Positions 4,770 through 19,264 of a stretch of DNA of 64,000 nucleotides are shown here, one piece after another (positions within the stretch are counted from its first letter, which is position 1; every line of letters starts with the position of its first letter). Source of the stretch: Sphingopyxis sp. TUF1 (GTDB taxonomy: Bacteria; Pseudomonadota; Alphaproteobacteria; Sphingomonadales; Sphingomonadaceae). The DNA lies in assembly GCF_036687315.1 (NCBI RefSeq), contig NZ_CP144683.1, forward strand, positions 2,302,001-2,366,000, in the 5' to 3' direction. A program made the position numbers and the translations under genes. The notes beneath the pieces are model-generated. The model was not told the origin of the DNA, searched no databases, and saw nothing but the letters and a program-made list of their open reading frames with translations.

Positions 4770-6995
4770 TTACAACGGCGAACCGAGCATTTTCATGAGT
4801 TCGTCGCTGTGCTCTCCCAAGGTGGGGGCCGGGCGCGATATGGGCAGGCGTGGGCCATCGATCCGGAAGACGGGCGCGGGGGTGCAGTGGCTTCCGACAT
4901 AGCGGCGTTCGATCCGCGTCCAGGCTCCGGTTTGCTCCAGATGACGCTCGACCGGCAGATTTTCGGCCCGGTTGATCGGGGCGGCCGGAATTCCCGAAGC
5001 CTGGAGGGCATCGGCCGCCTCCGCAGCCGTCATCGATGCGATGGCCACGCAGAGGGCGGACTCGATCTCATCGCCGTGCACGTTCCGGTCCGCAATGCTG
5101 GACCACTCGGCGATCCACTGCGGTTTGCGCAGCCACCGGGCGAGCGCGGCCCATTGAACGCTATCCCGGGCGACGATTGCCACATGACCATCACTCGCTG
5201 CGACCACGCAGCGCGGCGCATGGTGTATCGAACGGCTGCCGAGGCGCTGCGGGGGGCCTTCCGTCTGGGCGCGAACGATGGCGTCAGCGCCGAGCTGAAA
5301 CAGACACTCAACCTGTCCAAGGTCGAACCAGGCGCCGCCAAGCCTGCTCCTGCCATGGAGGCCGGCAAGCGCGGCGATCGCGCCGTAAATGCCCGCGACC
5401 GGGTCTCCCAGTGCGGTGTGTTGCAGGACCGGTGGCCAGTCGGCCTGGCCGTTGACGTGGGGCATGCCGGAGGCGTGCTCCACCGTGGAGCCGTAAGCGC
5501 GGAAGAAGCTCCATGGTCCGGACGCACCGAACGCACCCATCGACACCATGACAAGACCGGAACGGAGGCCGAGCAGACGATCGGGGTCGAGGCCGAGCTT
5601 GTTCATCACTCCGGGTGCGTAATTTTCGATCACGATGTCCGACCGGCTGACAAGGGTTTCGGCAACCTCACGTCCGCGTCGGTCGGTCAGGTCGAGGCAA
5701 ATATCCTTCTTGTTCCGGTTCATGATCAGAAATGCCGGCATGAGCTCATATTTGGGTGGATCGGATTCGCCCGGCGGTTCCCAGCCGCGCCACCAGTCGT
5801 AATGGGTGTCCGACTCCACCTTGATGACGTCGGCTCCGAGATCTGCGAGCAGCCGGGTGCACATCGGTCCCGCCCATCCCATCGAGAAGTCGGCAACGCG
5901 CACGCCTTCGAGCGGGCTGGCTGGCGGGCTTTCGGGCGGCTGCTCGTCGCGGGGCTTCCCGTCCACGAAAATGCGGAATGGTAATCGGGGGGCAACTATG
6001 CCCGGGGCGCCCGGCAGGGGAATGAAACTTTCCCGCTCGCGCCAGTGTGGCGTCTCCAGAAGTTCACGATGATCGGGGACGGGCGCCAGCGGAACCCGGC
6101 GGCGCTGGCCCTCGATCAACCAATATTCGGAAGTTTCGCGGATCAGGATTGCGGCGAGCGCGGTGTCGAGGGCTTCGGCGTTTGCGACGCGCGCGAGCGA
6201 TGTCGCGAAGCGGGGATCCTCCGCCCATTCCGGGTGTCCAACCATCTCGGCAAGCGCGGACCATTGGGCGGGCGTGAGCGCGGTTACGCCGATCCATCCG
6301 TCGCTCGTTGGATAGACGGTGGTCGGGTGGTTGGTCGCGAAGCGGTTTATCCCGGTTCGGCCGGGCGCAGCCGCACCCGCTTCCGCGAGGGGCGGCGAGG
6401 GTTCGGTGAAGCACATGGCAGCTTCGAAAATATTGACGTCGACGCGTCTGGTTTGGCCGCCTCGCTTGCGCCCCCAAAGCGCGGCGAGCGCTCCCACGAC
6501 GAGGGTGGCGCCCGCAGTGATCTGCGGTCCGAAGCCCTGGGGCAGCATCGGCGGGCCGTCGGACGCCCCGAAGGACGCCGCGATGCCGATCAAACCCTGG
6601 ATCAGGGCATCGTCGCCCTGCCAGTCCCGATAGGGTCCTTCATGACCGAACCATGTGATGCCGAGGCGAAGCGCGTCAACGCCCCGCTCCGCCAAGGACC
6701 TGTCTACCGATCCGACTGTTTCTGGCGACTGTCCGACGAGAACCGCACGATGCGAGGGGGGATAGTCCGCCAGACGGGTCAGCCCTTCGTCGAACGTCCC
6801 GATGAACGATTTGCCTTCGTCGAGCCAGAGATCCACGGCGTCGGCCTGGAGCGGTACTGCACTGCGCACCCGCAATATCTGTGCGCCGAGGACGGACAAA
6901 ATCCGGCCGCAGTAACGCGCCGCGGCGTCATCCGACTTTTCGAGCACCGCAATCCCGGCAAGAGGTCCGCCTTCGGCGCTGATGTGCAATTTCAT
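4770..6995 (-). CDS. Tandem two-domain CaiB/BaiF-type CoA-transferase
   Basis: A protein of about 741 residues made of two consecutive CaiB/BaiF (class III CoA-transferase) modules. The C-terminal module starts near residue 360 with LEGVRVADFSMGWAGPMCTR and GADVIKVES, and carries the catalytic-type aspartate Asp531 in ALGDPVAGIYG. The N-terminal module (about 8-330) is divergent, and the matching position in GPQITAG is Gln158, so only the second half is expected to be catalytic. The ATG chosen lies seven bases after GGAGAGG; an upstream in-frame start would add 15 residues with no support. Family members move CoA between acyl-CoA and a free carboxylic acid. Its promoter overlaps a copy of the shared palindrome, tying it to the catabolic cluster to its right. 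Confidence 0.9.
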   Translation of the reverse strand: MKLHISAEGGPLAGIAVLEKSDDAAARYCGRILSVLGAQILRVRSAVPLQADAVDLWLDEGKSFIGTFDEGLTRLADYPPSHRAVLVGQSPETVGSVDRSLAERGVDALRLGITWFGHEGPYRDWQGDDALIQGLIGIAASFGASDGPPMLPQGFGPQITAGATLVVGALAALWGRKRGGQTRRVDVNIFEAAMCFTEPSPPLAEAGAAAPGRTGINRFATNHPTTVYPTSDGWIGVTALTPAQWSALAEMVGHPEWAEDPRFATSLARVANAEALDTALAAILIRETSEYWLIEGQRRRVPLAPVPDHRELLETPHWRERESFIPLPGAPGIVAPRLPFRIFVDGKPRDEQPPESPPASPLEGVRVADFSMGWAGPMCTRLLADLGADVIKVESDTHYDWWRGWEPPGESDPPKYELMPAFLIMNRNKKDICLDLTDRRGREVAETLVSRSDIVIENYAPGVMNKLGLDPDRLLGLRSGLVMVSMGAFGASGPWSFFRAYGSTVEHASGMPHVNGQADWPPVLQHTALGDPVAGIYGAIAALAGLHGRSRLGGAWFDLGQVECLFQLGADAIVRAQTEGPPQRLGSRSIHHAPRCVVAASDGHVAIVARDSVQWAALARWLRKPQWIAEWSSIADRNVHGDEIESALCVAIASMTAAEAADALQASGIPAAPINRAENLPVERHLEQTGAWTRIERRYVGSHCTPAPVFRIDGPRLPISRPAPTLGEHSDELMKMLGSPL

Positions 6996-7060
6996 CGACT
7001 TGCCTCTCCATCGATCATGTCCCGTTCGTGCCCGAGACAAGAGTGCATTCGTTTTGCTTT

Positions 7061-7088
7061 ATGATAACGTGTTACCAGATGGAGGCAA
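7061..7088 (-). promoter_or_regulatory. Operator copy 1 overlapping the CoA-transferase promoter
   Basis: The core at 7063-7076 reads GATAACGTGTTACC, one mismatch from the palindrome GGTAACnnGTTACC found at three other promoters of the cluster. On the minus strand a plausible promoter surrounds it: TTGCCT (7083-7088), a 16-base spacer, then TATCAT (7061-7066). The operator therefore covers the spacer and -10 element, the expected place for a repressor. Promoter elements are read by eye. Confidence 0.6.
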
Positions 7089-7232
7089 GATCGCCATGGA
7101 TTCGCAGGGGTGACGGACCGGATTTCGACTGGAAAATCCCGCGGAGATCACGATTGTCGATAATAATATAGCTTAAAAACAATAGTTTAATTCGGGGTTC
7201 TTTGACTGGAAGCCTGTCCGTCGGAAAGCCTG

Positions 7233-7280
7233 TTGACACTCGGTCCGGATCAACGATAACCAGTGGTATCGCGTTACCAA
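7233..7280 (+). promoter_or_regulatory. Promoter and operator copy 2 for the TonB receptor operon
   Basis: A perfect -35 TTGACA (7233-7238) is followed after 16 bases by GATAAC (7255-7260). The palindrome GGTATCGCGTTACC (7265-7278, flanked by T and A) then lies over the predicted transcription start. It differs by one base from GGTAACnnGTTACC. The leader to the ATG is about 120 bases and contains no gene. Within the 390-base gap between the divergent CoA-transferase and receptor genes, operators 1 and 2 are the only structures recognised. Confidence 0.6.
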
Positions 7281-7385
7281 GGCGATTTGACGGACATGCC
7301 AAGCCGACAGGTTTCTTGGACGCGTAAAAAGATAATCAGCAGCGACCAGCCATAGGGAGGCGCTGTGACATAAAGAGGAGAGGGC

Positions 7386-9827
7386 ATGTTCAAGAGGCTC
7401 CTGTTGTCGTCCGCGGTGTTGCCGCTGACACTGTTTCACGTCGCCCATGCAGCGGCTCAGGAAACCGCCCCGCCTGAAAGCGCCGATGAGGAGGCAAGCC
7501 GTCAAGGCTTCACCGACATCATCGTTACCGCGCGGCGAGTGGAGGAGAATCTGCAACGCGTGCCGACCTCTGTCACCGCAGTAAGCGGAGATATGCTGCG
7601 CACGGAAAGCGTGATCGCAGTCAAGGATCTGCCGAAGCTCGCGCCATCGCTTAGCGTCGTGTCCTATTTCAACGACATGAATGCCCGCTTCTCGGTGCGC
7701 GGCCTGTCCGCTGGCGTCACCACCTATTTCGCCGAGGCTCCATGCTGCGGCGGTATCGCAAGCGCGCCGTTCCTGGACATTGCATCGGTCCAGGTGCTGA
7801 ATGGACCGCAGGGTACATTGTTCGGACGGTCGAGCGCGGCTGGCGCCGTGCTGATCACTCCGCAAAAGCCCGAATTCAACGACTGGGGCGGCCTGGTCGA
7901 CATGACGGTCGGCACTTATGGTCGGGCTCAGTTCACCGGGGTCGTCAACATTCCCGTGGTCGACGATCGTCTCGCCGTCCGCCTTGCCGTAAACGCCAAT
8001 CGCGTCGGCGGTTACACCAAGCAGTTCGGCACGAGCAAGCGTGTCGATGATGTTAACAACCAGCAGTATCGCCTCGGCATCGCGTTCAAGTCCGGGGGGC
8101 TCGAGAACACGCTTTTCGCGTCCTATGAAAATATCGATCAGTCTGCGACGGGTTCGGTCCTTGCCGGTTACAAGCCGACCCATCCCAACCTGAGCCCCGC
8201 GTTTCTTGCGGTGCTCGAAGCCGAAACGGCTCGTCTGGAACAGGGCGGAAAGAAGGCCGCGCGCATTACGGCTCCGCCCTATGACGGGCAGGCGCAGTTG
8301 ACGCAGATGAAGCATGCCAGCGTCGTCAACAACACGCAGATCGAGGTGATCGATTCTGGTGCGACACGCGTTCGCCTCAAGAACATCTTTTCGTTCGACT
8401 CCTTCACCTCGAACAGCGCCGGATCCTATGACGGGGTCGGCGGCATCTTGCAGGAAGGGGCATTCGCTTCGGCGAACTACAGCAATTTCGGTTCGAACAA
8501 CCAGGTCGGGACGAGGCTGACCGCCAAGCTCGGTCCCGCGCTCCACACCTATACCAACGAGCTTCAGCTACAGGCTGAACTGTGGGACGGCTTGCTCAAG
8601 GCCAATATAGGCGGCTTCTATCAGCACCAGCGGGCGCCCCAGAACCTGGAAGGCACCACCAACGTCTACAAGCTGTATAGCAATCCCAATGGCTATTTGA
8701 ACGCGGTAGGCTTCATCAAGCGTTCGGTAGCAAAGGAAAAGGCGGTTTTCGGCCAGGCCACGCTCGATCTTTCCTATGCCGGTATCGAGGGGCTCAGCAT
8801 CACCGGCGGTTATCGCTACAGCTGGTCCGATTCCGAACTGACGACGATCGCGCCGGTCCGCAATCCGGTTACCGGTCGCTTCGAACCGGGGACGAACGAG
8901 ACGAACTCGGCCACGAAGAGCAAGGGCTATAACTACACGCTTTCGATCCAGCAGCAGTTCACGCCCGACATCATGGCCTATGCTTCGGCGACGCGCGCCT
9001 ATGTACCCGGCGGCGTGAATGCGATCAGCCCGCCTCCCGGCGCCAATCTCCCGGGTTACAAGCCCGTTTATGATGCCGCGACAGTGAACACCCAGGAAAT
9101 CGGCCTCAAGACCCAATTTTATCTGGGCGACGTGGCGGTCCGGCTCAACACCGCAGCCTATAACACCGACTACAAGAATATCGCCCAGACGTTGCTCGGC
9201 CTCGTCAATGGCGTATCGTATCGCTACCTCGCCAATATCGCGGCAATCCAGCTGCGCGGTGTCGAAGCCGCGGGTACAGTGGTATTCAATCCGAGCTTCA
9301 GCGTAAACTTCGGCTATTCCTACAATCATGCGAAGTACAAGACATGGACGGGCGTTGATCCGTACAATATTGCGCGTCCGGGCGATGCCATTTGCGTACC
9401 TGAATCCCCGGCGGGCGTCTGCTTCCTCGATCTCAGCAATAACCCTTTGCCTTACATGCCGAAGCATTCGGGGAATGTGACGCTCCAGTACACGGCGCCG
9501 CTCGGTGACGACGTCGGCGAACTCGGGCTGTCGGCATCGTTCTTTACGCAAAGCCGGGTCTATTATGTCGCGGCTGCAGCGCGCGATCTCCAGCTTTATC
9601 CGGGCGGTCTCGATGCCATTTCGCAAGCTCCCTACAGCACCATCAATTTGCGGGCGGAACTGCGCGACGTGGCGGGATCGGGCTGGAATGGCGCGGTCTT
9701 CGTGAACAACCTGACCGACAAGCTTTATGCGACGGGCAAGGTCGCGCAGCTTCATACGCTCGGTTTCGCGGCGGCAAACTATGCGCCGCCGCGGATGTTC
9801 GGGCTTCAGGTCTGGAAGAAATTCTAG
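7386..9827 (+). CDS. TonB-dependent outer-membrane receptor of the catabolic cluster
   Basis: Complete receptor of 813 residues. It has a signal peptide (MFKRLLLSSAVLPLTLFHVA, cleavage near AHAAAQ), a TonB-box region (FTDIIVTARRVEENLQRVP), a plug domain to about residue 160 (FSVRGLSAGV, VQVLNGPQGTLFGRSSAAGA) and a long beta-barrel ending in PPRMFGLQVWKKF with the terminal aromatic residue usual for outer-membrane barrels. The motif LFGRSSAAG is common in sphingomonad receptors for catabolic substrates. A GAGGAGAGGG site precedes the ATG. It leads a probable operon with the dioxygenase and ligase genes and sits behind a promoter with an operator, so it is the likely import step for the cluster's substrate. 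The ligand cannot be deduced. Confidence 0.95.
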   Translation: MFKRLLLSSAVLPLTLFHVAHAAAQETAPPESADEEASRQGFTDIIVTARRVEENLQRVPTSVTAVSGDMLRTESVIAVKDLPKLAPSLSVVSYFNDMNARFSVRGLSAGVTTYFAEAPCCGGIASAPFLDIASVQVLNGPQGTLFGRSSAAGAVLITPQKPEFNDWGGLVDMTVGTYGRAQFTGVVNIPVVDDRLAVRLAVNANRVGGYTKQFGTSKRVDDVNNQQYRLGIAFKSGGLENTLFASYENIDQSATGSVLAGYKPTHPNLSPAFLAVLEAETARLEQGGKKAARITAPPYDGQAQLTQMKHASVVNNTQIEVIDSGATRVRLKNIFSFDSFTSNSAGSYDGVGGILQEGAFASANYSNFGSNNQVGTRLTAKLGPALHTYTNELQLQAELWDGLLKANIGGFYQHQRAPQNLEGTTNVYKLYSNPNGYLNAVGFIKRSVAKEKAVFGQATLDLSYAGIEGLSITGGYRYSWSDSELTTIAPVRNPVTGRFEPGTNETNSATKSKGYNYTLSIQQQFTPDIMAYASATRAYVPGGVNAISPPPGANLPGYKPVYDAATVNTQEIGLKTQFYLGDVAVRLNTAAYNTDYKNIAQTLLGLVNGVSYRYLANIAAIQLRGVEAAGTVVFNPSFSVNFGYSYNHAKYKTWTGVDPYNIARPGDAICVPESPAGVCFLDLSNNPLPYMPKHSGNVTLQYTAPLGDDVGELGLSASFFTQSRVYYVAAAARDLQLYPGGLDAISQAPYSTINLRAELRDVAGSGWNGAVFVNNLTDKLYATGKVAQLHTLGFAAANYAPPRMFGLQVWKKF

Positions 9828-9853
9828 GACGCAAACGCCAGGGAGGCGCAAAT

Positions 9854-10702
9854 ATGGCAACGCAACCAATCCGCCAGGAAGTGGACGGTATCTCGCCGGA
9901 ATTGAGCGCGCGGCTCGACGAACTGAAATTGTGGGACAATGTGCGCGACCTGGTCGAGGATGGCTATACGATCATCCAGGACCCCGCTGCGCACGCAATC
10001 ACCGACGAATTGCGCGAGGCGATCCTGCGGCTTTCGCAGACATCGGAAGGGGAAAACAGAGGGCGGCGCGCGGGTTTGTTGCTCGGCCGCGATCCGGTCT
10101 TCGCAAAAGCGGTCACCGTCCCGCGGCTGCTGGCGCTCGCGGAATTCCTGCTCGGCCGCGGTATGCTGCTGAGCCAGCTCCTCGGAACGATACGGGGACC
10201 GGGCGGAGGCAGTCTTGGGCTGCACGCCGACAATAGCTGGTTTCCCGAGCCGTTTCCCGCATGGGAAATCATGTGCACCGCCTGCTGGGTCACCGACGAG
10301 TTTACCGAAGAGCATGGCGCAACGATGATCATACCGGGGACGCACAAGCAAAAGCGTCACCCCCCGAAAGACGTCCGCAAGTCGCTGGAGGGTGCGCAGG
10401 CGATCGTTGCACCGAAGGGATCGATCTGCCTGTGGGACGGATCGGTGTGGCACGGCAATTACGCCCGCAAGACGCCCGGTGAGCGGGTCGTGCTTCATAC
10501 CACCTACACGCGGCTCGGCATGCAACCGATCGATGATTATAGCCACTTCGGCGATGAATGGTTGGAACAGAACTCCTCCGAACTGCGCGGCCTTCTCGGC
10601 CGCGACCTTTTCTTCCATTCGACCACCGAAACCAGCGGGCAGACGGACCAGGAAAAATTGCGCCATACCTACCGTATGGTCCACGGTCCGCAGGGATATT
10701 GA
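9854..10702 (+). CDS. Phytanoyl-CoA dioxygenase (PhyH) family protein, copy 1
   Basis: An Fe(II)/2-oxoglutarate dioxygenase of 282 residues. The metal triad is visible as His124-x-Asp126 (GLHADNSWF) and His200 (GSVWHGNY), with Arg211 (PGERVVLH) positioned to bind 2-oxoglutarate. PhyH proteins hydroxylate substrates next to a carboxyl or CoA-thioester group, among other roles. An AGGGAGG site precedes the ATG, and the gene starts 27 bases after the TonB receptor, so they are probably co-transcribed. It is closely related to the second copy at 18391-19212: long identical blocks include WEIMCTAC, VTDEFTEE and CLWDGSVWHGNY. Two copies in one cluster suggest either two successive hydroxylations or two substrates. 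Confidence 0.9.
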   Translation: MATQPIRQEVDGISPELSARLDELKLWDNVRDLVEDGYTIIQDPAAHAITDELREAILRLSQTSEGENRGRRAGLLLGRDPVFAKAVTVPRLLALAEFLLGRGMLLSQLLGTIRGPGGGSLGLHADNSWFPEPFPAWEIMCTACWVTDEFTEEHGATMIIPGTHKQKRHPPKDVRKSLEGAQAIVAPKGSICLWDGSVWHGNYARKTPGERVVLHTTYTRLGMQPIDDYSHFGDEWLEQNSSELRGLLGRDLFFHSTTETSGQTDQEKLRHTYRMVHGPQGY

Positions 10703-10727
10703 CCGGCAACGCCGCACAGGAGACGAC

Positions 10728-12302
10728 ATGAGCGATATCTGGACGGGCAGCGCTATTCCGGTCGCGGAGGCTTGCGTGACGGGACCGCTGCTCGAACGCT
10801 ATGCGCGCGAAACCCCCGACAAGGTCTTCGCTCTCTTTGAGGATGGGAGCAACTGGACTTACGCGGAAACGCTCGCGATCGTTCAGAAAATGGCCGGCGG
10901 TCTCCGTTCGCTCGGCGTCGCTCAGGGCGACTATGTCAATGTGTGGTTGCCGAATGGCCGGGAAACGATCGCGGTCTGGCTGGCGATCAACTGGCTCGGC
11001 GCGATCTATGTTCCGATCAATCTGGCCTACCGCGGGAATATTCTCGAACATGTCGTCGCGAACGGACGGGCGCGACTGATGATCGCGCAGTCGGACCTTG
11101 CCGAACGGCTGCGCACGATCGACCACGCATGTCTGACCGACATCGTCACGCTGGGCGATACGCCCGAAGCGATGGGCAATATCCGCTTCCATACGTGGGA
11201 GAGTCTCGACGGGGCGCAAGTCGCGGAGCCGGCCAGGGTCATGCCCTGGGACGTGCAGATGGTGATCTACACATCGGGGACGACCGGCCCGTCGAAGGGC
11301 GTCCTCGTCACCTATTGCCACAGCTATACGTCGGTCAGCGCCGCGTTCGGATATGTCGGTCCCGACGATCGCTATCTCGTCGCCTTGCCGCTGTTCCATA
11401 TTTCGGGAACCGGGGGCGTGCTCCTCGCACTCTACAACGGCGCATCCTTTGCGCTGATCTCGCAATTTTCGACCTCCAATTTCTGGCGCGTCGTGCGCGA
11501 GACGGGGACCACTTGCCTTGTCCTTCTCGGGGTGATGGCCGCCTTCCTCGCCAAGGAGCCGCCGCGGGACGACGATCGCGATCATCCGCTGCGATCCGTC
11601 ATGATGGTTCCCTACACCGAGGATGCCGCCATTTTCGAAAGCCGGTTCGGCTGCGAGGTGCGAACCTGCTTCAACATGACCGAGATATCGACCCCGCTGG
11701 TGGCCGAGCCCGGCGGCAATTTCCCGGTATCGAGCTGCGGCACGGTCCGCGCCGGGGTGGAAGCGCGGCTCGTCGATGCCCATGACGTCGACGTCGCCGA
11801 CGGCGAGATCGGCGAGCTCATTTTGCGTTGCGATCGTCCCTGGTCGATGACGACCGGCTATCTCAACAATCCCGAAGCCACCGCGGCCGCGTGGCGTAAC
11901 GGGTGGTTCCATACCGGCGATGCGTTCCGACGGGACGAGGCGGGGAATTATTTCTTCGTCGACCGGATCAAGGATGCGATCCGTCGCCGCGGCGAAAATA
12001 TCTCGTCCTTCGAGGTCGAGAGTGACGTCTGCTCGCATGTGTCGATCCGTGAGGCCGCGGCGATCGGCGTGCCAAGCCCCTTCGGCGAGGAGGAGGTGAT
12101 GGTCGTCGTTGCGCCCGCGCCGGGTGAGAAGGTCGATCCGAAAAAGCTCATCGAATTTCTGGAGCCGCGCATGGCCGGCTTCATGCTGCCGCGTTATATT
12201 CGCACGATGGACAATCTGCCCAAGACACCAACGCAGAAGGTGCAGAAGCATCTTCTGCGCGCAGAGGGGATCACGGCCGACACGTTCGACCGGCTCGCCT
12301 GA
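10728..12302 (+). CDS. AMP-dependent acyl-CoA ligase (carnitine/crotonobetaine-CoA ligase-like)
   Basis: ANL-superfamily adenylating enzyme of 524 residues. The AMP-binding P-loop YTSGTTGPSKGV lies near residues 183-194, followed by NMTEIS, the hinge DRIKDAIRRRGENIS around 410-425 and the catalytic lysine region PTQKVQKHLL at the C-terminus, so all core motifs are present. The length and the RRRGENISSFEVE motif fit the CaiC-like subgroup. An open frame runs upstream into the dioxygenase gene, but the ATG after CAGGAGA starts a normal N-terminus. It activates a carboxylic acid to its CoA thioester and would feed the carboxylase or the dioxygenases of this cluster. It is the last plus-strand gene of the receptor operon. 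Confidence 0.92.
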   Translation: MSDIWTGSAIPVAEACVTGPLLERYARETPDKVFALFEDGSNWTYAETLAIVQKMAGGLRSLGVAQGDYVNVWLPNGRETIAVWLAINWLGAIYVPINLAYRGNILEHVVANGRARLMIAQSDLAERLRTIDHACLTDIVTLGDTPEAMGNIRFHTWESLDGAQVAEPARVMPWDVQMVIYTSGTTGPSKGVLVTYCHSYTSVSAAFGYVGPDDRYLVALPLFHISGTGGVLLALYNGASFALISQFSTSNFWRVVRETGTTCLVLLGVMAAFLAKEPPRDDDRDHPLRSVMMVPYTEDAAIFESRFGCEVRTCFNMTEISTPLVAEPGGNFPVSSCGTVRAGVEARLVDAHDVDVADGEIGELILRCDRPWSMTTGYLNNPEATAAAWRNGWFHTGDAFRRDEAGNYFFVDRIKDAIRRRGENISSFEVESDVCSHVSIREAAAIGVPSPFGEEEVMVVVAPAPGEKVDPKKLIEFLEPRMAGFMLPRYIRTMDNLPKTPTQKVQKHLLRAEGITADTFDRLA

Positions 12303-12312
12303 TCGTAGCGCA

Positions 12313-12352
12313 GGTGATGGGGCGCCCCGACGGCGCTCCAGCCGGCATCACC
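12313..12352. terminator. Imperfect hairpin between convergent ligase and carboxylase genes
   Basis: The arms GGTGATG and CATCACC bracket an inner GGGGCGCC/GGCGCT pairing in the short gap between two converging genes. It lacks a T-run, so a role as a bidirectional terminator is only suggested by its position. Confidence 0.3.
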
Positions 12353-15300
12353 AGCTATCGATGAACGGGCGCTTCTTCTTGCCCGCCCGGATGGGGGCAG
12401 GAATGCTTTCAAGACCTGCGACGATGTGCGCCCGCGTTTCGGCGGGATCGATCACTTCGTCAAAGTCGAATCCCATCGCAGTGTTGATAGCCTTGCCATT
12501 CTCATAGGATTCCGCGACGCGCTGTTCATACCAGCGCTGTCGCTCGTCGAGATCGGCGATGGCTTCCATCTCTTTGCGGTAACCCAGCTTGACGGCGCCC
12601 TCCAGCCCCATGCCGCCGAATTCGCCTGTCGGCCAGGAGAGCGTAAAGAAGGGGGCCTGGCTGTGGCCGCCCACCATCGCCATCACACCGAGGCCATAGC
12701 CTTTGCGCAGGACAATCGAGAAGAGCGGCACCGTCAGGTTCGGACCGGTGATGAACATTCGGCAGCAATGTCGGATCAGCCCCGTCTTTTCGGCTTCCGG
12801 GCCCACCATGTTGCCCGGCGTGTCGGCAAGGACGACAATCGGGATGTCGAACGCGTCGCAAAGCTGCATGAAGCGCGAACATTTGTCCGCGGCATCGGCA
12901 TCGACCGCTCCCCCCAGATAGGCCGAATTGTTCGCGATGACGCCGACCGCGCGGCCCTCGATCCGGGCCAGCGCGGTGATCGCGGCTCGGCCGAATGCTT
13001 CGCGAAGCTCCAGCACCGATCCCGTATCGCACAATGTCTCGATGATCCGGCGGACATCGTAGGCGCGCAGGCGGTTTTCGGGGACCATGCCGCGCAAAAG
13101 CCGTTGGTCGGCCACATCCCATGCGGGCAGGCGCCCCTGAAAGTAGGAAAGATATTTCTGCGCAATGCGCACGGCGTCGGCTTCATCCTCTGCCAGGATG
13201 TCGATGACCCCGCCCGCCGCCTGCACCTCGGCGGGCCCGACTTCCTCCGGCGTGTAGACGCCGAGGCCGCCGCCTTCGATCAGCGCCGGGCCGCCGACGC
13301 CCATCGTCGTGTCTCTCGTCGCGATCACGACGTCGCAGCATCCCAGCAACACGGCGGCGCCGGCGAAACAGCGACCATTTGCAATCGCAATCTGGGGAAC
13401 GAGCGCACTCAGACGGCCTTGCAGAGCAAAGGCGCGCGTATTGAATATGCCGCCGCCGGCAGGCCGGTCGGTGTCGCCCGGACGCCCCCCGCCGCTTTCG
13501 GCAAACAGGATGACGGGCAGGCGCCAGCGCTCGGCCAATTCCAGCATCCGGTCCGTTTTTTCGTGATTTTTCAAGCCCTGCGTTCCAGCCTGAACGGTAT
13601 AGTCATAGGACATCACGACGCAGCGCGACGCATCGGCGCCGAATATGTCGCCGTTCACGCGCCCGATCCCGGTGACCATGCCATCGGCCGGCGTCGTGCG
13701 AATGAGATGATCGACCGGATGGCGCAGTCGCTGGCCCGCGATGACCAGCGAGCCATATTCGATGAAGCTGCCGTCGTCGACGATATCGTCGACATTTTCC
13801 CGGGCCGTGCGATATCCGCGGGCACGCCGCTTGGCGACGGCATCCGGACGTGCGGCATCGAGCGTCAACGCGCGGCGTGCCTGCAATTCGGCAAGATCGG
13901 CGCGAATATGGTCGGGGTCGAAGTCGGCGCTGGTCTCGATCGCCGACAGGCCCACATCGGCTTCCTCGAAGAACAGGATCGGATCGCCCTCCGAGATCAC
14001 GGCGCCTACATCGCTCGGTGACAGCCGGACATAACCTGCGGTCGGTGCGGTGATGACATGTTCGAGCTTCATCGCTTCCATGATCGCGACGGGCTGTCCT
14101 GCTGCGACCGCTTGATCCGTCTCCGCCAACAATGCGATCAGCGAGCCGGTCATCGGTGCCGCGATCGCAATCGTTCCGGCCGGCGCCGCCATCGCGCGAT
14201 CGGGTGATTGCGCGTCGTCGGCGGTGCTGGGCGACGGCTCGGACCTCAACTGGGCAGCACGTTCGAGAAGGACGCTGAGATTGCGCTCGATGAAAAGCGT
14301 GTCGAATGCGCCGCGCGCGATCTCGGGATGCTGCAGCAATGCACGCAGAAAGGGGAGGTTGGTGTCGATGCCTTCGATGGCAAACTCACCGAGCGCGCGA
14401 TCGGCCAGACGGGCCGCGTTCGCGAAACCGCCGGTCGGCGCGGTCGCGATGACCTTGGCGAGCAGGCTGTCGAAGCGGGGGTTGGGCTGATATCCCTGGC
14501 TTGCGCAGTCGTCGACGCGCACCCCGGGGCCGGCCGGCACTTCGTAACGGCGGATGCGACCACCGGACGGCCGCGGCATTCCGTCCGCAGCGATCGTTTC
14601 TGCATTCACGCGCGCCTGAATGGCGATGCCGCGCGGGGCAGGGATGCAATCCTGCCGAAGATCGAGATCTTTCAGCGATGCTCCGCTTGCCAGCGCCAAC
14701 TGGATGTCGACAAGGTCGAGCCCCGTCACGGCTTCGGTCACCGTATGCTCGACCTGCAGCCGCGCATTCGCCTCGATGAAGTAAAAGCTGCCGGTATCGA
14801 GATCGACGAGAAACTCCACCGTCCCGACGCCGCGATAATCCACCGCCTTGCCGATCGCGACAGCGGCATCGAACAGTCGGTGCCGCAGCGCGGTATCCAG
14901 ACCATGTGCGGGAGCAATTTCGACGATTTTCTGCCGCTGGCGTTGCAAGCTGCATTCGCGGTCCCACAGATGGACGATCTCGCCCGTGCCGTCGCCGATG
15001 ATCTGAACCTCGACGTGACGCGCCCGGCCGACGAGCTTTTCGCAATAGACGGCGTCCGACTTAAATCCGGCGAGCGCTTCCGAACTGCAGCGCTGATGCG
15101 CGTCGGCAACAGCCTCGCGATCGGTGACCGGCCGCATTCCGCGACCGCCCCCGCCGGCCACTGCCTTGATCATCATCGCGCCGTGGCGATCGAAAAAAGC
15201 GAGGGCCTGTTCGACGTTGACCGGGCCTTCGCTTCCGGGCGGAACGGGGACACTGGCCGCCAGCGCAATCGCGCGTGCCCTGGCCTTGTCGCCCAGCGCC

Positions 15301-15626
15301 GCCAGCGTCGCTGCGGCAGGGCCGACGAAAACCAGACCGGCCTCTTCGCAGTGCCGGGCAAATTCGGCGGTTTCGCTCAGAAAGCCGTACCCTGGATGGA
15401 TGGCATCACAGCCCGCCTCGCATGCTGCGCCGACGATGGCCCCGACATTGAGATAGGCGGCGGGGCCACTGCCCGGCAGGGCGATCGCCTCGTCGGTCCT
15501 CCGAATGTGCAAGGCGTCGCCGTCGTCGGCGGAATAGATGCCGACAGACCGGATTTCGCGAACGGCGGCGGCGCGAGCGACGCGAATGGCGATCTCGCCG
15601 CGATTGGCGATCAACAATTTCTGCAT
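12348..15626 (-). CDS. Single-chain biotin-dependent acyl-CoA carboxylase (BC-BCCP-CT fusion)
   Basis: A 1092-residue protein that joins all three parts of an acyl-CoA carboxylase. Residues 1-445 are biotin carboxylase (MQKLLIANRGEIAIRVARA, ATP-grasp glycine loop AVAGGGGRGMRPV, FIEANARLQVEHTVTE). Residues about 490-565 are the biotin carrier domain with the biotinylated Lys520 in MEAMKLEH. Residues about 590-1092 are the carboxyltransferase. Most bacterial enzymes of this type use separate subunits; single-chain forms are known for some long-chain acyl-CoA carboxylases. It would carboxylate an acyl-CoA with bicarbonate and ATP. It starts just after the SCP2-like gene's stop and is probably translated with it. 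The natural acyl-CoA is unknown. Confidence 0.93.
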   Translation of the reverse strand: MQKLLIANRGEIAIRVARAAAVREIRSVGIYSADDGDALHIRRTDEAIALPGSGPAAYLNVGAIVGAACEAGCDAIHPGYGFLSETAEFARHCEEAGLVFVGPAAATLAALGDKARARAIALAASVPVPPGSEGPVNVEQALAFFDRHGAMMIKAVAGGGGRGMRPVTDREAVADAHQRCSSEALAGFKSDAVYCEKLVGRARHVEVQIIGDGTGEIVHLWDRECSLQRQRQKIVEIAPAHGLDTALRHRLFDAAVAIGKAVDYRGVGTVEFLVDLDTGSFYFIEANARLQVEHTVTEAVTGLDLVDIQLALASGASLKDLDLRQDCIPAPRGIAIQARVNAETIAADGMPRPSGGRIRRYEVPAGPGVRVDDCASQGYQPNPRFDSLLAKVIATAPTGGFANAARLADRALGEFAIEGIDTNLPFLRALLQHPEIARGAFDTLFIERNLSVLLERAAQLRSEPSPSTADDAQSPDRAMAAPAGTIAIAAPMTGSLIALLAETDQAVAAGQPVAIMEAMKLEHVITAPTAGYVRLSPSDVGAVISEGDPILFFEEADVGLSAIETSADFDPDHIRADLAELQARRALTLDAARPDAVAKRRARGYRTARENVDDIVDDGSFIEYGSLVIAGQRLRHPVDHLIRTTPADGMVTGIGRVNGDIFGADASRCVVMSYDYTVQAGTQGLKNHEKTDRMLELAERWRLPVILFAESGGGRPGDTDRPAGGGIFNTRAFALQGRLSALVPQIAIANGRCFAGAAVLLGCCDVVIATRDTTMGVGGPALIEGGGLGVYTPEEVGPAEVQAAGGVIDILAEDEADAVRIAQKYLSYFQGRLPAWDVADQRLLRGMVPENRLRAYDVRRIIETLCDTGSVLELREAFGRAAITALARIEGRAVGVIANNSAYLGGAVDADAADKCSRFMQLCDAFDIPIVVLADTPGNMVGPEAEKTGLIRHCCRMFITGPNLTVPLFSIVLRKGYGLGVMAMVGGHSQAPFFTLSWPTGEFGGMGLEGAVKLGYRKEMEAIADLDERQRWYEQRVAESYENGKAINTAMGFDFDEVIDPAETRAHIVAGLESIPAPIRAGKKKRPFIDSW

Positions 15627-15629
15627 GAT

Positions 15630-16064
15630 CTATGCCGCCGTTTCGTGTGCGATACGATCGTGCAGCTGGCGCAAGACCGCCATCACCGGCTTCGACGCCT
15701 TATGGTTTCCGACGTGGATCGTCATGCGGCCCTCGGCAATCATGGCGCGCCGGTGATCATCGATGGCGTCCAGCATCTCTTTCGTCGCCCCGTCATAGAT
15801 CAGCATCGCCCCGGGCAGCGCCGCCGCTTGCTCGGCAACCAGCGCAAAATCGGCGTCGGGGTTCGGTGCATCGCCGAACCGGACGTCTCCCCCTTCGATC
15901 TCAGCAGCCCAGAATCCGGTTCCGCCATCGGGCGGAACGGACGTGAAAGTCTCCGACAGCGAGAAATGATGACCTGCCAGGCGATCGGCGTTCTCGGTCA
16001 CCAGTTGCACGAGCAGTTCCTTGATACGTTCGATCCACTGCGGGCTGGCAAAAATCATCGTCAT
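15630..16064 (-). CDS. SCP2-like (sterol carrier protein type) small protein
   Basis: A 144-residue soluble protein. The C-terminal pattern GRMTIHVGNHKASKPVMAVL and the preceding ADFALVAEQ block resemble the SCP2 sterol-binding fold, which holds hydrophobic acyl-CoAs or lipids. The ATG overlaps the stop of the transporter gene as ATGA, and the TAG stop lies three bases before the carboxylase start. The three genes therefore look translationally coupled. The context suggests it presents a hydrophobic acyl-CoA to the carboxylase, but this is inference and the fold call is moderate. Confidence 0.65.
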   Translation of the reverse strand: MTMIFASPQWIERIKELLVQLVTENADRLAGHHFSLSETFTSVPPDGGTGFWAAEIEGGDVRFGDAPNPDADFALVAEQAAALPGAMLIYDGATKEMLDAIDDHRRAMIAEGRMTIHVGNHKASKPVMAVLRQLHDRIAHETAA

Positions 16065-17569
16065 TCTTTCGATTCCAGTTCGTGCAGGATGCGGGCATGC
16101 TTGTCGCGGTCGAGGTCGTAGAACCACATGATCGACATCGCGATTGTGGTGAAAACGAGCATCATCGGGCCATATAGAAGTGCCAGATGGACGGTGGCTT
16201 CGCGCGGAACGGCTTCGACCGCGACACCTTGCGGGAAGCGGATCAGGTCGAGCGCTATCCCGGCCAGCGCGCCGCCAATTCCCAGCGACGCCTTGCGCGT
16301 GAACGCGCTGACGCCGAACAGAAAGCCCTCGCTCCGGCTCTTGAACCGCAGCTCATAGGCATCGGCGATATCCGCGAGCATGGCGCCGGCGATCACCATT
16401 GCCGGGCCGCCGGCAAGCGACGCGAAGAAAGCTGCCGCGGCCAGCAGGGCGGTCAGGGCTTCTGCGCTATCGGGAGGCGTGAGTATGCCCGCTTCTCGCA
16501 GACCTATCGGCGCCACGTTGAGCGCGACGGACAACACCACCGACGCGACATAGGCCGTGCGTTTGTCGAACCGGTCGGCAAGCGCGCGCGCGAAAAGCGA
16601 CCCCAGCATGAAACCCAATGCCGCGCCCAGAAATACCCATTGGATGCCCCATGTGGGCAGCTTCCAGTAGAAGGTGTTGACGTGCACCGCGAGCGCTGCC
16701 TGGACGCCCCCTAGAACATAGGAAATCAGGATCGCGACGAAAAAGATCGCGAAGGTCCGGAGCCGGAACGCGTTGACGAGGTTGCTCAGCATGGGTTCGT
16801 GGACCTGCCCCCGGCCTTGCGACTGCATCCGGGAATAATATTGCAGCGCACGGCTCTGCGTCGTAGCGGCGGACGCCAGGATCGCAATCAGCGCAATCGC
16901 GCCGCAGGTCAGCGCGAGCGGGGGATAGGCGGCGGCGTTCAACTGTCCCTGCGGATATTCTGGGGTCGCGTGAAAAAATATGCTGAAAGCAATTCCGAGG
17001 ACGAGCAACCGCCCCGCGAAGGCGAAGATATTTCTGTAGCCCGAGACCGAAATCCGTTCTTTGAAGTCCGTCGAAAGCTCGGCGCCGAGGGCCATATGGG
17101 GGATGAAGTAAAAGGACTGCATCAGCCGGCAGAAGGCGGTGAAACCGAGCAACCAGAAAAACGTCCCCCATTGCCCGAGGCCGGCAGGCGGATCGAAGAG
17201 CATGTAGAGCGCGAAAGCGAGCGGTATGGGAGCGAGATAGAGATAGGGATGCCTGCGACCCAGCCGCGTGTTCGTTCGGTCGGACAACTGCCCGATCAGC
17301 GGGTCGGAAATACCGTCGAAAAGCAACGCGATCAGAAGCGCGAGGCCGACGAGCGAGCCTTGTAGCCCGATGACCTGGACATAATAGAAAAAGAGGAAGG
17401 TCTCGAGCGTCGCCGTCTTTACGCCCTCGGCCATTTCGCCGAGGCCATATCCCAATTTGGTGCCGATCGAGAGACGCGCCTTGCTCCTGGTCTCGGCAAG
17501 GGCGTCTTCGAGGACGGGCGAAGGCGCATAGGTGACCGCCGGGGGATGTCCCGGAACTGCTTCCCTCAT
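16061..17569 (-). CDS. GPH/MFS_2-family cation symporter
   Basis: An integral membrane protein of about 502 residues with roughly 12 hydrophobic segments. The N-terminal block KLGYGLGEMAEGVK, then DGISDPLIGQLSDRTNTRLG and RRHPYLY, is the signature of the glycoside-pentoside-hexuronide:cation symporter family. The ATG used here follows GGAGAG; an upstream in-frame start would add six residues. The family is named for sugars, but sphingomonad members often sit in catabolic clusters for other organic acids. It is the first gene of the transporter-SCP2-carboxylase unit and has an operator copy just upstream, so it is the likely inner-membrane step for the cluster substrate. Confidence 0.9.
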   Translation of the reverse strand: MREAVPGHPPAVTYAPSPVLEDALAETRSKARLSIGTKLGYGLGEMAEGVKTATLETFLFFYYVQVIGLQGSLVGLALLIALLFDGISDPLIGQLSDRTNTRLGRRHPYLYLAPIPLAFALYMLFDPPAGLGQWGTFFWLLGFTAFCRLMQSFYFIPHMALGAELSTDFKERISVSGYRNIFAFAGRLLVLGIAFSIFFHATPEYPQGQLNAAAYPPLALTCGAIALIAILASAATTQSRALQYYSRMQSQGRGQVHEPMLSNLVNAFRLRTFAIFFVAILISYVLGGVQAALAVHVNTFYWKLPTWGIQWVFLGAALGFMLGSLFARALADRFDKRTAYVASVVLSVALNVAPIGLREAGILTPPDSAEALTALLAAAAFFASLAGGPAMVIAGAMLADIADAYELRFKSRSEGFLFGVSAFTRKASLGIGGALAGIALDLIRFPQGVAVEAVPREATVHLALLYGPMMLVFTTIAMSIMWFYDLDRDKHARILHELESKE

Positions 17570-17610
17570 CCTTCTCTCCGTTCTCACGGCGTATAGCGAC
17601 GCTCGCGAAT

Positions 17611-17636
17611 CTCATTGGTAATGTGTTACCAATGAG
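17611..17636. promoter_or_regulatory. Operator copy 3 between transporter and tetR genes
   Basis: This is the longest of the four copies, a 26-bp near-perfect palindrome. Its core is GGTAATGTGTTACC (17617-17630), and its arms extend outward as CTCATT and AATGAG. It lies in the divergent gap between the transporter operon and the regulator gene, so it could control both, including autoregulation. A possible tetR promoter downstream reads TTGCAG, a 16-base spacer and TATAGC (17694-17699), which would favour the internal ATG at 17748 as the tetR start. Confidence 0.65.
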
Positions 17637-17708
17637 ATGCCACTGCGGAACCTGCTAGTCAATGTCGTGGGTTGCAGGCTGTGAGACACGCGATATAGCG
17701 GCGTTGCT

Positions 17709-18398
17709 ATGACGAATGTCGAAGACGCGACGGGGCGGGGCGGCCATATGTCCGGGAAGGCTGCGACCTTGCTGCAGGCGGCGCAGGCAATTGTTCGCGA
17801 GACGGGCAATTTCGATCTTCCGATGCGGATGCTCGCGGCGCGGGCGCAGGTCAGTTTGCGCACGCCCTATGAGCTGTTCGGGTCAAAGAACGGGATCATC
17901 CGCGCGTTGCTTGTTTCGGAACAGGATGAGTTTCGGGAGATCGTCAGAAATTATCGCTCGATCGACCGGCTCGAGATGTTTTTCGACCGGACGCTGCTCG
18001 GCATGGATTTTTACGCGCGCGAGCAGCCCTTCTACAGGGCTTTGTTTCGGGCGACGCAGGCCTTCTCGGGCGGGGATGAAACCGAACCCGCCCGCGAGAT
18101 GCTGCTTGTCTACGCGAACATGGTCCGCCGGGCGATCGATGAGGGCTTCTTGCGCGACGATCTCAACATAATGAACATCGCCGAGACGCTCACCGATCTG
18201 TTCGCGGCGAACCTGCGCAACTGGGCATCGAGCGATTTCGACATCTGGCTCGCCGGACAGAAAATCTGCTTCGGATTCTCGCTCGCGCTCGCCGGCGTGG
18301 CCGCGCCGCAGTGGGTGGAGCGGCTGCACCGGAGCGCCCGGAATTACGACAAGGCTATCCAGGACTATCTCGAAGGTGGCGAAATCGCTGTCAGGTAA
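17709..18398 (+). CDS. TetR-family transcriptional regulator
   Basis: About 229 residues. The N-terminal helix-turn-helix is visible as ATLLQAAQAIVRETGNF, then MRMLAARAQVSLRTPYELFG and SKNGIIRALL, in the usual TetR order. The C-terminal part is a helical ligand-binding and dimer domain without a recognisable signature. An internal ATG at 17748 preceded by GGGGCGGGG would shorten it to 216 residues and fits the possible promoter better. It is the only regulator in the cluster, is divergent from the transporter operon, and the shared palindrome lies in the gap between them. It is therefore the prime candidate to bind all four operators, with an acyl-CoA or the substrate as inducer. Its end overlaps the convergent dioxygenase gene by 8 bases. 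Confidence 0.88.
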   Translation: MTNVEDATGRGGHMSGKAATLLQAAQAIVRETGNFDLPMRMLAARAQVSLRTPYELFGSKNGIIRALLVSEQDEFREIVRNYRSIDRLEMFFDRTLLGMDFYAREQPFYRALFRATQAFSGGDETEPAREMLLVYANMVRRAIDEGFLRDDLNIMNIAETLTDLFAANLRNWASSDFDIWLAGQKICFGFSLALAGVAAPQWVERLHRSARNYDKAIQDYLEGGEIAVR

Positions 18399-19212
18399 TT
18401 CCGCGCTTTTGCCAGAATTCCGATCCGTGAACCTGGTCATAGGTTTTTCGGAGCAACTCCCGGTCATTCTGTTTGAACGTCGGACTGCGACCCAGAAAGA
18501 CTTCGCGGCCCAATAGCCGGGGCAGTTCGGGGTCCTTGCCGTCGAACCACGCCTCGCCCAAATGGTCGTAATTCTCGATCGGCTGCATGCCGATGCGCGT
18601 GTAGGTCATGTGAAGCACGACGCGTTCTCCGGGGATCTGGCGGGGATAATTGCCGTGCCAGACCGACCCGTCCCACAGGCATATCGCACCCTTGGACGCG
18701 ACTATCGGCCGCGCGCCTTCCGGTTTCGCGCGCTCGTCGGGCGAGGGATGGCGCTTCAGCTTGTGCGAACCGGGCACGACCAGGGTCGCACCGGTTTCCT
18801 CGGTAAACTCGTCCGTGACCAAACAGGCCGTGCACATGATCTCCCATTCCGGGAAGGGAGCGGGAAACCAGCTATTGTCGGCATGCAGACCGAGAGAACC
18901 CTTCCCCTGCCGACGCCGAGAGCCGGATAATTGCGAAAAGAGCGCGCCTCGCCCGAGAAGATATTCGACCATCGTCAAAAGCTTGGGTGCTGATATCGCA
19001 TCGGCGAAAATCGGATCTTCGCCCAATATGGTGAACCGCGTTGGCGCTTTTTCTTCGTCGCCTGCTGGCACGACACGAATGATGGCTTCTCGAACTTCGT
19101 CGACAATGCGGTCGGTCCGCTCATCATGGAAAACCGTGTAACCCCAGCGATCGAGCTCGGCGACATTTTCCTCAAGCCCTTGTTCGCGAATGCGATCTTG
19201 CAGTTGCTGCAT
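18391..19212 (-). CDS. Phytanoyl-CoA dioxygenase (PhyH) family protein, copy 2
   Basis: A 273-residue paralogue of the dioxygenase at 9854-10702. The Fe(II) ligands His110-x-Asp112 (GLHADNSWF) and the distal histidine (GSVWHGNY) are present, as is the arginine in PGERVVLH, so it should be active. Differences lie mainly at the N-terminus, before HAD, and in the last 50 residues, the parts that often shape substrate choice. Ribosome-site candidates GAGGAG and AAGGG precede the ATG. It is transcribed alone from a promoter that contains the best operator copy, at the far end of the cluster from its paralogue. Confidence 0.9.
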   Translation of the reverse strand: MQQLQDRIREQGLEENVAELDRWGYTVFHDERTDRIVDEVREAIIRVVPAGDEEKAPTRFTILGEDPIFADAISAPKLLTMVEYLLGRGALFSQLSGSRRRQGKGSLGLHADNSWFPAPFPEWEIMCTACLVTDEFTEETGATLVVPGSHKLKRHPSPDERAKPEGARPIVASKGAICLWDGSVWHGNYPRQIPGERVVLHMTYTRIGMQPIENYDHLGEAWFDGKDPELPRLLGREVFLGRSPTFKQNDRELLRKTYDQVHGSEFWQKRGIT

Positions 19213-19238
19213 ATCCCTTTATCTCCTCTAATCGATAA

Positions 19239-19264
19239 GGTAACACGTTACCGATGGGATGCAA
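19239..19264 (-). promoter_or_regulatory. Operator copy 4 in the promoter of the second dioxygenase
   Basis: The core GGTAACACGTTACC (19239-19252) is a perfect match to the shared palindrome. On the minus strand TTGCAT (19259-19264) could be the -35 element, with the palindrome in the spacer before an AT-rich -10 region (CCTTAT). The arrangement again suits repression. Confidence 0.65.

Follow-up and report, generated by a model that had tools for sequence, protein, structure and literature searches.

The gene cluster under study lies at 4770–19212 of the window (the whole 64-kb stretch of DNA analysed here) and comprises eight non-regulatory genes and a gene for a TetR-type regulator (Table 1). 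The CoA-transferase is of double length and contains two CoA_transf_3 stretches, and is therefore probably a fused pair. The carboxylase carries three domains in one chain, and its residues 3–1069 match residues 4–1070 of a solved long-chain acyl-CoA carboxylase (4rcn; 1059 bits), indicating that it is a full-length enzyme of the long-chain acyl-CoA carboxylase type. The two phytanoyl-CoA dioxygenase family proteins are related paralogues, each matching the orthologues of the other at ~55%; a solved-structure search with PhyH2 gives weak matches (best, 4.9e-09). No significant family or solved-structure match is obtained for the small protein. The overlap of the transporter stop codon and the small-protein ATG at 16061–16064 suggests that the two are translationally coupled.

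Table 1 Genes, promoters and predicted operators of the cluster, in window positions.
Feature	Position	Strand	Remarks
CoA-transferase family III (CaiB-like), 741 aa	4770–6995	−	Two matched stretches; start is the ATG preceded by GGAGAGG
O1 promoter	TTGCCT 7088–7083, spacer 16, TATCAT 7066–7061	−	O1 inside promoter; O1 conserved in 3/3 aligned genomes
O1 operator (predicted)	7063–7076	−	GGTAACACGTTATC on minus strand (GATAACGTGTTACC forward), 1 mismatch; for CoA-transferase gene
TonB receptor promoter	TTGACA 7233, spacer 16, GATAAC 7255–7260	+	By eye; absent from strict scan
O2 operator (predicted)	7265–7278	+	GGTATCGCGTTACC, 1 mismatch; for TonB receptor gene
TonB-dependent outer-membrane receptor	7386–9827	+	Family matches
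PhyH1, phytanoyl-CoA dioxygenase family	9854–10702	+	Family match
Acyl-CoA ligase (AMP-forming), 524 aa from internal ATG	10728–12302	+	Family match on whole ORF 10392–12302
Single-chain biotin-dependent acyl-CoA carboxylase	12348–15626	−	Biotin carboxylase, carrier and carboxyltransferase domains
Small protein	15630–16064	−	ATG overlaps transporter stop
GPH-type (MFS_2) transporter	16061–17569	−	Family matches
O3 operator (predicted)	17617–17630	−	GGTAACACATTACC on minus strand (GGTAATGTGTTACC forward), 1 mismatch; between transporter gene and tetR
Likely tetR promoter	17672–17699	+	TTGCAG-16-TATAGC; conserved in 4/4 aligned loci; absent from strict scan
TetR-type regulator, 229 aa	17709–18398	+	Recognition stretch QVSLRTPY
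PhyH2, second phytanoyl-CoA dioxygenase family protein	18391–19212	−	Family match
O4 operator (predicted)	19239–19252	−	GGTAACGTGTTACC on minus strand (GGTAACACGTTACC forward), 0 mismatches; before second PhyH gene

The TonB receptor, PhyH1 and ligase genes lie on one strand, separated by gaps of 26 and 25 bases. From spacing of this kind, we infer four transcripts, each with one of the palindromes O1–O4 described below: CoA-transferase (O1), TonB receptor–PhyH1–acyl-CoA ligase (O2), transporter–small protein–carboxylase (O3), and PhyH2 (O4). Together, these transcripts would cover all eight non-regulatory genes. The genes present suggest that a hydrophobic acid is taken up, activated with CoA, dioxygenated, and carboxylated; a hydrophobic carboxylic acid is our guess at the substrate. 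Among the open-access papers listed in literature searches, none deals with the cluster or its substrate. Carriage on a plasmid gains no support, as a search of a plasmid collection gave no match.

The regulator matches no Pfam family at 0.001 and gives weak NCBIfam matches to ScbR and KstR. Its AlphaFold2 model adopts a TetR fold, with the N-terminal helix-turn-helix and the all-helical C-terminal domain of the TetR/AcrR family. Structure comparison with the model returns TetR-type proteins including FadR and KstR (also DNA-bound KstR), tied with the drug-sensing QacR; therefore, the ligand class does not follow from the fold. Palindrome binding of the TetR/AcrR type would fit the sites and their conservation. 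This protein is the sole regulator recognised in our scans of the cluster proteins, in agreement with the initial annotation.

The four 14-bp palindromes had been picked out in the initial annotation as a single operator with at most one mismatch per copy, every copy in a promoter region of the cluster. Both statements hold: O1, O2, and O3 have one mismatch each and O4 is perfect, and the copies precede the CoA-transferase (ATG 6995), TonB receptor (ATG 7386), and PhyH2 (ATG 19212) genes or, for O3, lie between the transporter ATG (17569) and the tetR ATG (17709). With two mismatches allowed, the window yields no further match, and four sites are reached in 0/100 shuffled windows (mean 0.70; largest, 3). 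The copy beside tetR, described as the longest, keeps its 14-bp core in 4/4 aligned loci, but its extra-long arms are not conserved in relatives. A search of the window's first 26 kb finds no tandem repeats.

In the whole genome (3,470,982 bases), no site other than the four cluster copies matches at up to one mismatch, so the palindrome is neither common nor randomly placed; 22 further places match with two mismatches. A larger, genome-wide regulon is unsupported at this threshold. A reversed control pattern also has four genome matches at up to one mismatch, indicating that it is the placement of the sites, not their number, that is unusual. The four share a span of 12.2 kb, and each is in a promoter region. 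Across 77 genomes of the genus that lack the TetR, 68 such sites occur in ~310 Mb (rounded sizes and counts), a background of 0.22 per Mb, at which ~0.003 sites would be expected in 12.2 kb. To lessen post-hoc bias in the motif, we scored all 4,096 possible 6-2-6 palindromes on the three promoter regions of the cluster, allowing one mismatch. GGTAAC-NN-GTTACC matches four times; five other palindromes match once each, three of which (GATAAC, GGTAAT, and GGTATC) are one-letter variants of GGTAAC, and the remaining 4,090 do not match. Shuffled half-sites gave no hit in 4,970 draws.

In promoter-region alignments, the operators stand out as conserved islands. O4 is conserved in 4/4 loci amid otherwise diverged DNA, where the PhyH2 region keeps little besides the ribosome-binding site and the operator. 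A strict consensus promoter scan places a single promoter over an operator, that of O1 (TTGCCT-16-TATCAT). It finds none over O3 and O4, and one hit in the O4 region falls elsewhere; the remaining promoter assignments thus rest on conservation and inspection by eye. The TonB receptor promoter and O2 are conserved in 3/3 aligned genomes, and O2 is positioned just 3′ of the −10 element, not over it. O3 has a −35-like TGGCAT, at an offset shared with O1 and O4, and a weak −10; O4 has a −35-like TTGCAT (19264–19259) and a weak −10, TACCTT. The claim that three copies overlap a readable −35/−10 pair is accordingly borne out for O1, whereas O2 lies downstream of its −10 and the −10 elements at O3 and O4 are weak.

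A broader count bears on the arrangement at O1. Among 34 unique operators from 13 loci (the window being represented by its first 26 kb), a TTG begins exactly 12 bases upstream in 15, including O1 and O4; at any other offset, TTG occurs in at most 7 of the 68 strands scanned. Many of these operators are closely related and hence not independent, and both genera that carry them (see below) are represented. With TTG at this offset and a 16-base spacer, the first base of the −10 hexamer (TATCAT in O1) is the second T of the right half-site, and repressor and polymerase would therefore compete for the same bases.

The likely tetR promoter lies 41 bases downstream of O3, which makes autoregulation of tetR doubtful. 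It ends nine bases before the tetR ATG (17672–17711), a distance that points to an mRNA with little or no leader. At the TonB receptor promoter, the −10 element GATAAC is itself the sequence of a left half-site, and O2 starts four bases further on; the stretch 7255–7278 is kept in 3/3 genomes except for one base. A second, overlapping binding mode there is conceivable.

We searched for the TetR in 298 genomes of the family, 80 of the genus, 385 of the class, 296 of the order, and 101 of the Phenylobacterium group (the samples overlap), taking as strong orthologues proteins at least 86% identical or scoring above 300 bits to the profile. Strong orthologues come from two genera alone, and other profile matches score 158 bits or less. 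They are present in 3/80 genus genomes, counting the window's own, in 4/101 Phenylobacterium-group genomes (profile, >300 bits), and on one short contig of a metagenome-assembled genome (L046). The family, class, and order samples contain none at this level besides the window's own. No relative was confirmed by scanning genome contigs with the single protein, and five loci came from the scan with the profile. In all, 118 TetR homologues were detected.

In 7/7 other orthologue loci, three of Sphingopyxis type and four of Phenylobacterium, the palindrome stands before cluster genes (8/8 with the window), and in each of the eight a site adjoins tetR. The Phenylobacterium TetR proteins are 45–50% identical to that of the window over the aligned part. 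Their loci were found by the protein profile alone, and their operators therefore constitute an independent test; they also show that A is allowed as the second base, giving the refined consensus GRTAACNNGTTAYC. The eight orthologue-bearing genomes contain 18 exact copies of this consensus, 18/18 of them in the tetR cluster. At up to one mismatch, 34 of 54 sites are in the cluster and 20 are elsewhere, as the background would give.

The operator also co-occurs with the regulator across genomes. Within the two genera, 7/7 bearers hold two to four exact sites; of 174 non-bearers, 168 hold none, 6 hold one, and none holds two or more (Fisher p ~1e-12 for at least two exact copies, with relatedness ignored). 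One of the six lone matches is from the Sphingopyxis genus (G347) and five are from the Phenylobacterium group. The match in G347 sits inside an open reading frame, and within the surrounding 18 kb only a 67-residue amidohydrolase stretch matches any of 14 window proteins. In the L046 genome, five one-mismatch sites lie on other contigs, and the stretches examined around them have no match to the same 14 proteins.

The recognition stretch QVSLRTPY is identical in 8/8 orthologues with operators and shows little or no variation across an alignment of 44 rows. Searches of 44 paralogue loci yielded a match in 41 (23–38% identity; one gene appears twice, as L019 and L110), and 0/41 rows has a site at up to one mismatch between −330 and +60 of the start; eight larger paralogue loci (L072–L079) likewise contain no such site. 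The residue after the tyrosine of the recognition stretch is N in 39/41 paralogue rows and E or V in the orthologues. R51 of the recognition helix was considered as a mark of specificity, but 4/41 paralogue rows carry it and lack the operator, indicating that R51 alone does not set specificity. A palindrome with the AACnnGTT core lies near the start in just 4/41 paralogue rows, and we accordingly claim no family-wide operator rule. One paralogue locus (L075, 9343–9356) has a perfect palindrome with this core, CTAAACATGTTTAG, ~100 bases before the match to a distant TetR paralogue; a sister regulator may use it as its operator.

We consider it highly likely that the protein encoded at 17709 is a dedicated repressor that shuts the four cluster transcripts by promoter occlusion through GRTAACNNGTTAYC. 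A TetR dimer would bind the four copies of the palindrome. At O1, and probably at O3 and O4, the operator would fill the −35/−10 spacer, with the right half-site serving as the −10 element; at O2, it would cover the likely start site. In either layout, bound TetR would keep RNA polymerase out. On entry of the substrate, a pathway compound, most likely a CoA thioester made by the ligase, would bind the C-terminal domain and release the TetR, so that uptake and catabolism come on together. Judged from sequence comparison, one repressor thus very probably switches the whole cluster on and off. Several points weigh against this reading: 20 of the 54 sites at up to one mismatch are outside the cluster, the strict scan backs only the O1 promoter, autoregulation through O3 is doubtful, the 34 operators include many close relatives, gene content differs between loci, and R51 also occurs in paralogues that lack the operator. 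The single operator and regulon under TetR proposed in the initial annotation are supported by the co-occurrence of orthologue and operator and by the retention of the operator across two genera beside an identical recognition stretch.

The palindromes could instead be operators of another regulator encoded elsewhere, with the neighbouring TetR a bystander. The pairing of TetR with the sites is a prediction, which leaves some room for this reading. It is nevertheless improbable: sites and TetR orthologue occur together in 7/7 genomes and at least two exact copies apart from the TetR in 0/174, a site adjoins tetR in 8/8 loci, and the cluster proteins scanned include no other regulator.

It is similarly unlikely that the TetR binds but acts in part as an activator, or that not all four sites function, the receptor promoter at O2 being under different control. 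O2 does differ in layout from the other three and has the most divergent left half-site (GGTATC), and O3 lies upstream of the likely tetR promoter. The divergent half-site is nonetheless kept in 3/3 genomes, and a position on the −10 element or immediately beyond it suits repression.

That four chance palindromes were singled out after the sequence had been read has next to nothing to commend it: the motif was indeed defined post hoc and the reversed pattern is equally frequent in the genome, but we reject chance on the genome-wide placement, the scan of 4,096 palindromes, the empty half-site draws, the 18/18 exact copies in the cluster, the co-occurrence with the TetR, and the conservation at loci found by protein alone, of which those of Phenylobacterium exclude it in effect.

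The repressor reading can be set beside known systems. The nearest operator found is that of KstR (TnnAACnnGTTnnA), the TetR repressor of mycobacterial cholesterol catabolism (PMC1995591). KstR, likewise of TetR fold, works in a similar way: its operator partly overlaps a −10 element, and it controls CoA-dependent lipid catabolism across a genome-wide regulon (PMC1995591). The two operators have in common the 6-2-6 spacing and the AACnnGTT core, but the outer T and A of the KstR operator are replaced by G and C here, and the window TetR would rule a single cluster. The window TetR is not KstR itself: its score with the NCBIfam KstR model is 22.2 bits, where 280 is required.

EdcR, an estrogen-dependent TetR repressor of Caenibius tardaugens, is similar in organisation: it belongs to a related bacterial group and specifically represses one catabolic cluster, with one palindrome over the −10 box at several cluster promoters (PMC8700777). 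Its proposed operator, TnnCnnTACnAnTnGTAnnGnnA, compared as the printed motif, is unlike the four sites. The TetR repressors of FadR type that control fatty-acid degradation (Bacillus, Thermus) have the same fold, catabolic targets and, by the titles of their structure entries, acyl-CoA sensing; in the fold comparison, drug-sensing TetRs such as QacR rank equal with them. Literal motif strings retrieved from the open-access literature, among the matches listed, one paper alone, on AdcR. The AdcR box of streptococci, TTAACNNGTTAA, has the core TAACNNGTTA in common with the window operator (PMC11580457); AdcR is a zinc regulator of the MarR family, not of TetR fold, the outer bases of the box differ, and the likeness is one of letters only. 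No open-access paper on such a cluster or regulon is among the matches listed, and within that scope the regulon appears undescribed, if an ordinary kind of gene switch.

More tentatively, with the balance of probability somewhat against it, the TetR, a promoter-built operator (TTGNNN-N6-GRTAACNNGTTAYC, right half-site as −10), and a CoA-dependent hydrophobic-acid cluster may have moved between Sphingopyxis and Phenylobacterium as one package, the operator staying almost unchanged as the protein diverged to 45–50% identity. The TetR would then sense a CoA thioester and represent an independently evolved counterpart of KstR in proteobacteria.

The operator motif offers a testable candidate operator for the TetR subfamily to which the detected homologues belong. 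The compound that releases the repressor would point to the pathway and thereby provide a route to the substrate of this CoA/PhyH/TonB cluster, and the arrangement with the operator inside the promoter could be used as a switch for work in sphingomonads. Knowledge of TetR repressor mechanism is unchanged by this regulon, which is well supported and useful rather than surprising.

The orthologue loci vary in gene content. PhyH genes are numerous in the 20 kb of L050, which also contain two receptors and two transporters and no match to the CoA-transferase or carboxylase, and the receptor and ligase of L047–L049 are just 33–42% identical to those of the window. The Phenylobacterium loci have further PhyH genes, and L047 and L049 a second CoA-transferase. 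In Phenylobacterium, additional operator copies separate the ligase gene from the receptor gene (L047, 2432–2468) and precede the transporter gene (L094, 9263–9456), where G752 has two, 180 bases apart.
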